Assembly (NCBI GenBank): GCA_905221605.1
Contig: CAJNDS010000060.1
Span: forward strand, 179,130-243,129
Origin: Symbiodinium natans
Lineage: Eukaryota > Sar > Dinophyceae > Suessiales > Symbiodiniaceae
DNA length: 64,000 nucleotides
Reading direction: 5' to 3'
The notes under the pieces were generated by a model. The model saw only the letters and a program-made list of their open reading frames with translations. It was not told the origin of the DNA and ran no database searches. The position numbers and the translations under genes were made by a program. This document shows, piece after piece, positions 27,108 through 29,290 of this stretch (within the stretch, counting starts at the first letter, position 1; every line of letters starts with the position of its first letter).

Positions 27108-29290
27108 GTGTTCAGGGCGGGTGTTTTTGGGGCGGGCCGTTTCCCAGGTCGCCGGTCTGCGGGCAGAAGGATTTCTCGTCGTTCGTCGCGTGCGGCTTCG
27201 TTCCTCTGTCTCGCAGCCAGTGTTTTGCAAGCAGGCCTATATAGAGGTTCGGTCCTAGGTAGTCCCTCTCCGCGTTCGTGCCTGTGCACTGCGCCCCGCT
27301 GCGGGTCGCGACCAGACCGCGCGGGAGCGACCGATCGGTCGCCCGGACCTTCGTGGTCAACCACAAGGCCCCCGCTGCGGGCCGTGCCCTGGCCGCGCGG
27401 GAGCGGCTGCCTACCACTACTGCACACCGGCCCCTTGCAGCGGGCCGTGTCCTGGCCGCTCAAGGGCGCGTCGGGTTTTCCTCGCCCATCGGAGGTCCAG
27501 CGAAGCCGCGGGCCTCAGTGCCGCGATGGGTGGAGGAGGGTCGAAGGGTCCGCTCCGGGCGGCCTCTACCCGGTTGATGAGTTGATCGAACAACTCGGCA
27601 TCACCATCAACCAGTACAACCAGGCGGTCGCGCACGACGCCAACCAGCGGAAACCGAGGTTGGATACCTCGTACGCTGGCTACTTGCGTGCCTTCCAAGG
27701 CCACTCGGCCGATTGCGGCCATCCTATGGGATTCATGATGGAGGGCCTAAGTGAGACCGCCATCAACGATCTTATATATCGGTATGGCCCGGCCATGTGG
27801 CACGGCACGGACTTGCATGTCGTGCCGAGCCTGATCGAGAATGGCTTGATCCCCGGCGGCGGGCCGGGAGGCCGCCTCGGGGTGCACTACGTCCTAGGGC
27901 ACTGCCCCACGCAGTGGGAGGACGGGAGACGCGGGTTCCGCCGCGGATCGACTTGCATAGTCGAGGTCCGGTTGGCGGTCCTGCGGGACGCCGGAGTGCC
28001 TATCTATGCGGGAGCAGATGGGGTGGCTCTCACTGGCCAGATTAGAGCCACCGGCATCTCCCGCATCTGGGCACTCCCCAAAGGCTCAGCTGTTTACTCC
28101 ATCTTAATAGCTGAGTTAGAAGTGGATCGGTTGATCCAGCATGTCGACCTAAGGAGTTTAGGCGACACCAGTGCGGGCCCCCACCCGCCGTTGGGGCGAG
28201 GACCGAAACTGGGCACGGTCCAAGCGTCCCAAGCTGCTGCGGCCAGCAGTGGCGCGGCGAGCTCCTCGACGGTTGTGCTGGCCCCTGCGGGCCGTGTCAT
28301 GGCCGCGGGGGCCGCCCAACCTGTTACCCCTCCTAAGGCCGCGCCTAAGGCCAAAGGGCGTGCTTCAGGGGCTCCTAAGACTTCGATCTTTCCAGCGAAG
28401 CCCAAGGAGTATCCTAGGCGCAACATCCCTGGCCCCAATGCCCTCGAGGCCGAAGACTCGCTCGAGGAAGAGGCAGCCCAAGAAGCTGAAGGTGTCGAGG
28501 AAGATAGTTCCAGCTCGGATCTTCCCGACACGCGGGCGCCCCAAGCCGCGGTCAAGGTGAAGGAGGACGAAGAGCCCGCTGGTGGGGCCCAGGCCGGGAG
28601 CATAGAGGAAGGAGTCCTCGAACTTGGCCAATCGGTGGTCAGCACCGCGAAGGAGTACCTCGCGCGGTCCGAAGCTCTTCTGAGAGCGCAGAAACTCCAG
28701 TCGAGAATACTGGAGGTGGCGGGAACCGCGATGGTGAAGTTAGAAAAGATCACCAAGCGTGAGGAATCCCTCAAAACTCTGCGCCGTGGGGGAGAGAATC
28801 GGGCGGCCGAGGAAGGCGCCGACGGGGAAGAGGTGTCTGACGATGGTCAGGATGCCCCCGGGGGTGCGGGATCGAGCAGTTCCGCCAGGCCTTCAAGAGG
28901 CGGGACCGTCCGGTCCGCCCCGGCCCCAGAGGTGCCTCGCCCCAATGCTGACGGCCACTATGGATGCTCAGCTCCTGGATGCGGGCTGGCCTTTGAGTCG
29001 CTGGTGCAATACCACTTGCATCAGGCGGCCTGCCATGGCGCCTCTCTTCCGCCCAACCTGGGGATCAGCCCCTCCGCACCTCTTGACCCTTTTCGTCAAG
29101 ACTGGCGGGGACGGTTGTTCCGCCGAGGAAAGGACGGTGGGTATGGGGAGGTGCCCATGCTCCGAGTGATTCGGTACCACAAAGCCAACGGGTACGATCA
29201 CTCGAAGGTCCCGCTCCTGAAGAGAGGGGACCGAATCCAGCTTGAGGACGGATCGCACCGCATTTATGGTGGTAGTCATGGTGGGGGTGG
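27108..29290 (+). CDS. Tpt1/KptA-like RNA 2'-phosphotransferase domain with C2H2 finger
   Basis: The frame is open 27108-29498; meaningful from about 27560. 27573-28072 follows the Tpt1/KptA family: an N-terminal winged-helix part (VDELIEQLGI...LRAFQGHS), WHGT (His codon 27801), NGLIPGG, VHYVL, GFRRGST, then IYAGADGVALTGQI matching the FYxxxNGVWLTxxV end. This family removes splice-junction 2'-phosphates from RNA using NAD and can ADP-ribosylate nucleic-acid ends. Arg of RAFQGHS and Arg of GFRRGS fit two essential arginines; the N-terminal LLRH Arg-His pair is not seen, so activity is uncertain. A low-complexity Ala/Pro/Glu linker follows, then a C-x4-C-x12-H-x4-H finger near 28960-29030. After about 29280 the sense frame shifts beside a run of five G. 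Confidence 0.75.
27301..27320. repeat. Covarying hairpin copy 5
   Basis: GCGGGTC, loop GCGACCA, GACCGC; outer CCCGC/GCGGG. A perfect 16-bp palindrome GCGACCGATCGGTCGC follows at 27327-27342. Confidence 0.75.
27377..27396. repeat. Covarying hairpin copy 6
   Basis: GCGGGCC, loop GTGCCCT, GGCCGC; outer CCCGC/GCGGG. Confidence 0.75.
27440..27459. repeat. Covarying hairpin copy 7
   Basis: GCGGGCC, loop GTGTCCT, GGCCGC; outer CCCTTG/CAAGGG, a compensatory change relative to copies 5 and 6. Confidence 0.8.
28287..28306. repeat. Covarying hairpin copy 8
   Basis: GCGGGCC, loop GTGTCAT, GGCCGC; outer GGCCCC/GGGGCC. Read in frame as PAGRVMAA in the cargo linker. Confidence 0.75.

Follow-up and report, generated by a model that had tools for sequence, protein, structure and literature searches.

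A retrotransposon family of Symbiodinium natans carries a Tpt1/KptA-type RNA 2'-phosphotransferase domain with conserved active-site residues

Why would a retrotransposon carry a Tpt1/KptA-type RNA 2'-phosphotransferase? Passages of earlier papers describe the role of this enzyme outside tRNA splicing as elusive (PMC6582358) and its widespread presence as a longstanding conundrum (PMC6333775). The question is raised by a stretch of 64,000 nucleotides from the dinoflagellate Symbiodinium natans (contig CAJNDS010000060.1, positions 179,130 to 243,129; hereafter the window), in which a sequence-only reading had recognized Tpt1/KptA motifs inside a long terminal repeat (LTR) retrotransposon. We find that the element belongs to an LTR retrotransposon family of many copies, whose enzymes resemble those of Ty3 and which encodes an accessory protein downstream of pol, and that the identity of the accessory domain as Tpt1/KptA is near certain. 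The presence of KptA in retrotransposons is real and more general than that reading stated: other retroelement families in the same genome carry KptA too.

The element spans 16.9 kb at positions 16154–33062, and all features described below lie on the + strand. The direct repeats at 16154–16464 and 32752–33062 are identical over 311 of 311 bp, run from TGTGA to TCACA with AT next in both, and flank the pol region as the TG...CA ends of an LTR element do. The motifs RAFQGHS (27687–27707), WHGTD (27798–27812), GGRLGVHYV (27867–27893) and GFRRGS (27933–27950) occur where they had been reported. The Tpt1/KptA domain (27547–28150) follows the start of the accessory open reading frame (ORF; MGGGGSK, 27526–27546). 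The profile PF01885 (PTS_2-RNA) matches residues 162–320 of ORF 27075–29498, that is 27558–28034, with E=1e-6 and 29.3 bits, above its gathering score of 26. The isolated domain matches with E=6e-8, and two copies that retain a segment missing from the window match with E=6e-10 and 3e-10 (39.8 and 40.7 bits).

Taken alone, the window copy lies just moderately above the cut-off, which could be read as an assembly artefact or a chance similarity of motifs. We consider this excluded. Our search of the 759-Mb assembly (2543 contigs), in which the best 150 of 348 candidates were scored, sets the copy number at 150 or more. All 150 scored copies match at 91–100% identity; they lie on many contigs and have open frames of up to 5309 amino acids. 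In one copy, read in two pieces, pol and KptA lie in one uninterrupted open frame. Independent protein records exist as well: three protein searches returned 5, 42 and 74 rows, and all 34 sequences examined are the same kind of protein.

We then consider whether the domain could be an enzyme. In CthTpt1, the essential tetrad is described as Arg18, His19, Arg68 and Arg121, with NAD contacts from HGT 101–103 (PMC6333775, in part). Single-sequence searches of the PDB with the KptA domain gave no match, and profiles were required. In a weak profile alignment (E=0.2), R38-H39 and R94 of the family stand opposite ALRH and IRALYGHS of the solved Tpt1 6e3a; in another (E=0.0011), R156 pairs with the Arg within GKRQYVH of 8tfz, a structure with the title P. 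horikoshii Tpt1. We compared codons in 38 copies including the window, 20 of them picked for low identity and 10 mostly for long frames. R38, H39, R94, R156, H132, G133 and T134 are all kept in 34 of these. The Arg-His pair, located ahead of the motifs noted earlier, occurs in 35 copies and is absent from the window, L041 and L043; L043 also lacks R94, and the fourth exception, L032, has RGT for HGT. The complete tetrad and HGT also occur in the diverged relative P0014, a type that was not found in the S. natans genome, where 143 scored matches were all at most 49% identical to it.

The missing Arg-His pair had led the sequence-only reading to suppose an altered or inactive domain. This holds for the window copy, in which 118 bp carried by L002, L003 and L008, the three copies set beside it, are absent between 27546 and 27547. 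With this deletion the Arg-His segment is lost and the reading frame changes seven codons past the ATG at 27526, which leaves the window copy without a complete Arg-His-Arg-Arg tetrad. For the family as a whole, the sequences of the other copies led us to reject an inactive enzyme. Judged by its conserved active-site residues, the N-terminal domain of the accessory protein appears to contain a catalytically complete Tpt1/KptA site.

A structure model of the KptA domain points in the same direction. A search of the PDB with this model, which is of moderate confidence, returned solved Tpt1/KptA structures in all of the top 22 rows, with the model aligned over approximately residues 22–242. The match spans both predicted lobes, a winged-helix RNA lobe and an ADP-ribosyltransferase (ART) NAD lobe. 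The element domain thus shares profile match, two-lobe fold, tetrad and HGT with Tpt1/KptA/TRPT1 (PF01885). It differs in being part of a retrotransposon, where its long ORF also encodes zinc-finger-like motifs and a PLD-like domain, and in having a four-residue insert before the fourth Arg. It scores about 40 bits against PF01885, compared with 181 bits for the host-type gene L053.

Is the domain of use to the element, or is it a passenger captured by chance? The latter idea can draw on the three of 38 copies without the Arg-His segment, and on two protein records (P0004 and P0005) that lack most of the domain, though these are perhaps artefacts of gene models. The pattern of substitution speaks against it. 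No stop interrupts the matched KptA stretch in 144 of the 150 scored copies. The 38 copies split into subfamilies A (14) and B (24), and between these the dN/dS over codons 50–244 is 0.17, changing to 0.14 if kappa is set to 1 and to 0.19 if it is set to 5; inside the subfamilies it is 0.25 and 0.32 (kappa 2.5). These are pairwise estimates of the Nei-Gojobori type, made without a tree, and the pairs are not independent. Codons without a variant shared across the subfamilies show 14 synonymous and 5 nonsynonymous changes, and a nonsynonymous count as low was reached in 0 of 500 random placements (five A–B pairs tested). Full-length homologues are also kept at 42–64% identity. The comparison among copies that had been suggested to detect random decay revealed purifying selection instead: the KptA domain is under purifying selection across the family, and a useless passenger is a disfavoured and very improbable explanation.

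Selection along the whole element was followed by comparing one A copy with up to five B matches per 300-bp interval. In coordinates of copy L009, dN/dS is 0.00–0.09 in the three intervals from 8101 to 9001, which cover the palm of the reverse transcriptase (RT), and 0.00–0.01 in the three from 2701 to 3601, which cover thumb and RNase H. Intervals touching KptA give 0.16–0.32 and those in the PLD-like domain 0.16–0.56. Inside subfamily A there are few changes, and the values scatter up to 1.05.

The 42-row search contains close copies as well as diverged relatives down to 32% identity; outside the close copies, relatives that cover at least 70% of the query are 42–64% identical, save for one short row at 32%. 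The six named relatives come from Symbiodinium microadriaticum (two), S. necroappetens (two, named 'pol') and Symbiodinium sp. KB8 (two, named 'pol'). P0053 joins the RT palm to KptA in the same way; it is 80% identical across the 154 columns of RT and its tail, but 47% identical across KptA. P0060 from S. microadriaticum is collinear, with 46% identity in KptA, 42% in the C2H2 part and 38–42% in the zinc-ribbon part. KptA is thus retained in the relatives, although it diverges faster than RT.

This faster divergence is what one would expect if the domain had lost RNA phosphotransfer and come to bind RNA, modify proteins or counter a defence instead. The LTR clade also lies on a long branch of the KptA tree (4.0 changes per column), and HGT is replaced by HRT in two other families of the genome and by HAT in one. 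On the other hand, the tetrad and HGT are complete in the great majority of the copies sampled and in the diverged P0014, so we regard such a change of function as unlikely.

The reading that we favour, and hold to be rather probable, is that of a multi-copy LTR family in which a catalytically complete Tpt1/KptA RNA 2'-phosphotransferase serves as an accessory domain and as cargo for RNA repair or against damage. The findings suggest a need of these elements to repair or tag the ends of RNA. That the domain acts on RNA ends in some way is likely, and a specific role in removing 2'-phosphates moderately likely. In the latter case, RNA of the element or tRNA would be cut to 2',3'-cyclic ends and then healed or ligated. 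KptA would use NAD+ to strip the resulting 2'-phosphates from element RNA or from needed tRNAs, and reverse transcription or translation would thereby be kept unblocked. A similar proposal has been made for KptA in RNA virus polyproteins (PMC9503650, in part). The PLD-like domain, which shares its ORF with KptA, might open or cut RNA ends. The case for this is weak, because the Asp of what we take to be its HKD motif lies away from the usual place.

Several observations weigh against the favoured reading. Constraint on KptA is weaker than on pol, and the domain is incomplete in some copies, as seen above for the window, L041 and L043. The structure model has a mean pLDDT of only 59.6; TM-scores normalized to target length reach just 0.37–0.60 for the 21 Tpt1 chains with E<0.001, and the rmsd is 4.8–7.6 Å in those VIA rows that extend over the two lobes. 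The Pfam scan of parts of the element and of its copies revealed neither an RNA ligase nor a 2H domain, and therefore the host would have to supply the activity that generates the 2'-phosphate. Finally, the same tetrad supports ADP-ribosylation of 5' ends (PMC6582358, in part), so that conserved residues cannot separate the two reactions.

This last point leads to the main rival, in which a genuine Tpt1-type enzyme would benefit the element by using NAD+ to ADP-ribosylate the 5'-phosphate ends of the element's RNA or cDNA. Such a reversible cap could protect ends or block unwanted ligation. Sections of PMC6582358 report that human TRPT1 and Streptomyces KptA ADP-ribosylate 5'-phosphorylated RNA, and that alanine mutants of the four TRPT1 tetrad residues lose this activity. 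The PDB entry 9lda is a KptA complex titled 5'-p-ADPR-DNA, and ends of either kind, RNA and cDNA, are produced by the element. Against this, we found no sequence feature that separates capping from phosphotransfer. We take 5' capping for a possible but less probable function than the phosphotransferase that we favour.

Does KptA occur in other retroelements? A search of the genome with PF01885, in which the best 150 of 474 candidates were scored, gave seven groups, sorted by score and frame length and not by sequence. Group i comprises 3 places near 170 bits; group ii, 12 at 144–146 bits with frames of up to 4767 amino acids; group iii, 33 at 129–141 bits, 18 of them with frames of 655–656 amino acids; group iv, 19 at 116–122 bits with frames of up to 3125 amino acids; and group v, two at 104 bits (contigs C2444 and C1926). 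Group vi contains 28 at 76–82 bits (profile positions 8–176, frames of up to 2937 amino acids) and group vii 11 at 42–45 bits (positions 30–176). The remaining matches are five of the window's own family and otherwise fragments, singles and host-type genes. Among the latter, L053 (323 amino acids) and L057 (245 amino acids) look like host-type Tpt1 genes.

Three of these loci have ORFs resembling long interspersed nuclear elements (LINEs), in which KptA joins or adjoins an APE-type endonuclease, with single frames of up to 4767 amino acids. L059 (contig C345, group ii) and L060 (C223, group iv) have endonuclease and RVT_1 in the same frame as KptA. In L054 (C2235, group i), KptA (E=8e-49) is followed by endonuclease in another frame, and the fetched stretch ends before any RT could be seen. 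We conclude that two LINE-like families of the genome, if not more, carry KptA, and that L054 probably represents a third. The three copies of LINE family i differ by 3–4 changes per pair, too few for dN/dS. Further KptA groups are represented by L062, L063, L064 and L065 (contigs C1882, C1557, C236 and C2444); L062 and L063 have HRT for HGT and may be altered enzymes. A scan of the genome contigs for related loci revealed no confirmed relative.

A KptA tree of 17 rows, from which the relative P0018 had been dropped beforehand, unites the LTR rows in one clade; three rows are on long branches. The closest neighbours of the LTR rows include groups iii and v, at a support near 80. The approximately unbiased (AU) test does not reject a single origin of LTR and LINE KptA (p 0.25) or of LINE KptA alone (0.44). 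Because this test rejects neither, it does not decide between one capture and several.

Captured enzymes are a known theme in retroelements. Parts of PMC5890265 describe SymbioLINE-Dnmt, SymbioDIRS-Dnmt3 and KnitGypsy-Dnmt3, the first two in Symbiodinium, as retroelements with a captured host-type enzyme. Their LINE layout likewise has the cargo ORF upstream of RT, and the KnitGypsy cargo has a Ka/Ks below 0.2. Unlike KptA, their cargo is a DNA methyltransferase; the term 'phosphotransferase' does not occur in PMC5890265, and the C5 cytosine methyltransferase domain PF00145 was not among the Pfam hits of the parts scanned here. With the present elements, the enzymes known to be captured by Symbiodinium retroelements include not only DNA methyltransferases but also an enzyme of RNA ends. 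KptA in the polyproteins of Beihai picorna-like virus and Botrylloides leachii nidovirus (PMC9503650, in part) also travels aboard an RNA-replicating selfish element; 'retrotransposon' and 'retroelement' are absent from the main text of that paper. In contrast to these viruses, the retrotransposons exist in many genomic copies, which is why selection is measurable here. As the selfish, RNA-copying element keeps KptA under purifying selection, the benefit of the enzyme could be measured as transposition. We recognized no report of KptA/Tpt1 in a retrotransposon in the literature searched, which was covered mostly at the level of titles and abstracts (the text of PMC6338049, PMC5890265, PMC8045281 and PMC8775202 was included in the term search), so that absence from print is not shown.

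The same family has a second unusual trait. The C-terminal half of RT is encoded before the integrase and the N-terminal half after it, so that the usual order of the halves is inverted and RNase H and integrase stand between them. In the window, the C-terminal half (thumb/connection) and RNase H occupy 20704–21612 (PF17917, E=3.9e-9; 5.3e-10 in L009). The integrase at 23665–24034 comprises an H2C2 zinc domain (PF17921, E=2.6e-10) and a portion of the rve core (E=4e-4 and 21.2 bits, under its cut-off of 32.6). The N-terminal half (fingers/palm) follows at 26516–26866, with motif A at 26636 and YVDD at 26846; it matches RVT_1 at profile positions 7–158 of 205 with 29.4 bits, just below the cut-off of 29.6 (29.9 in L009). 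L009:2599–3537 (thumb, RNase H) aligns to residues 253–475 of the Ty3 RT chain (E=7e-6), and L009:8020–9078, with YVDD, to residues 108–197 (E=9e-5).

Eleven of the 150 copies were fetched at length, mostly chosen for long frames. The reversed order is found in the window and in all ten fetched copies that span both halves (L009, L011, L013, L015, L017, L019, L021, L024, L026 and L028), and both halves are strongly constrained at the amino acid level. We rejected a second, complete RT that would incorporate the half before RNase H: neither L009:1–2628 nor L009:2629–3537 has an RVT_1 match, and L009:6700–9291 matches only profile positions 7–158. The family is of Ty3/gypsy type in sequence, with a gypsy-type RNase H, an H2C2 integrase and Ty3 RT as best PDB match; RT_RNaseH and Integrase_H2C2 score above their cut-offs, RVT_1 at its cut-off and rve below. 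It departs from the Ty3/gypsy order of protease, one continuous RT, RNase H and integrase in that its RT halves are reversed, with RNase H and integrase in between. Domain shuffling in Symbiodinium retroelements has precedent, since SymbioDIRS elements occur in two structures with different orders of Pol domains (PMC5890265, in part). A split, reordered and strongly constrained RT would be an unusual build for a retrotransposon polymerase. Penelope-like elements reportedly also have permuted domains, as one title indicates. We offer, as a tentative conjecture, that KptA is a recurrent cargo of dinoflagellate retroelements, in LTR and several LINE families alike, that meets a common damage or attack on RNA or cDNA, and that at the same time the LTR family replicates with RT halves made in reversed order and reassembled.

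The window copy itself is a recently inserted yet defective member with a broken KptA domain. Its identical LTRs suggest a young insertion; the insertion point lies inside an (AT)n repeat, which masks any target-site duplication. Besides the 118-bp deletion, 99–108 bp found in the same three copies are missing at 27255. The gag frame switches between approximately 18274 and 18373, and a stop occurs at 20236; the frame of the integrase region switches between 23771 and 23877, and further switches occur near 29270 and near 31210, the latter seen from split orf3 matches. That several frames are broken while the LTRs are identical suggests mobilization in trans, probably by proteins of other copies.

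The remaining parts of the element are as follows. Directly after the 5' LTR, a TGG start marks a candidate primer-binding site (16465–16490) by its position, with no tRNA matched. A gag-like region (16667–19227) has two CCCH zinc fingers (18634–18693 and 18853–18912; Pfam zf-CCCH on the homologous part of L009), and a protease-like region (19138–19911, MLDGCAGANH at 19222) was assigned by position and by eye, without a Pfam protease match. Beyond KptA, the accessory ORF contains a C2H2-type zinc finger-like motif (28965–29036), a sequence pattern without a Pfam match to which P0060, itself named C2H2-type, aligns. Two Cys-rich zinc-ribbon-like patterns follow within 29795–30223 (29795–29845 and 30164–30223), and P0060 aligns in both. 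The PLD-like phosphodiesterase domain (31600–32028; HxK at 31861, GSLNFT at 31918) matches PF13091 with E=2e-10 and 41 bits against a cut-off of 27. It is present in the window and in nine of ten fetched 3' parts (exception L018); against the PDB it gave weak matches only, with copper transporters on top, which we judged meaningless. A purine-rich stretch ahead of the 3' LTR (32742–32751) is a candidate polypurine tract. Scans of the window for RNA genes detected no tRNA and nothing in Rfam that reached a gathering score. Between integrase and RT palm, approximately 490 amino acids (24500–25966) have no Pfam match, and one part appears methyltransferase-like by eye only.

A last observation concerns L009:9301–9601, just before the accessory ORF. 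The dN/dS is 1.15 with few changes, the nucleotide divergence is low (0.001–0.046 per 100-bp bin, close to the 0.000–0.024 of RT palm bins and below the 0.046–0.078 of KptA bins from 9700 on), and the equivalent stretch of a relative has no detectable protein similarity. For these reasons we read it as probably non-coding and assume that translation of the accessory protein begins at a separate ATG. Although its frame is open, the stretch behaves as conserved non-coding sequence and could be a promoter or a trans-splicing site.
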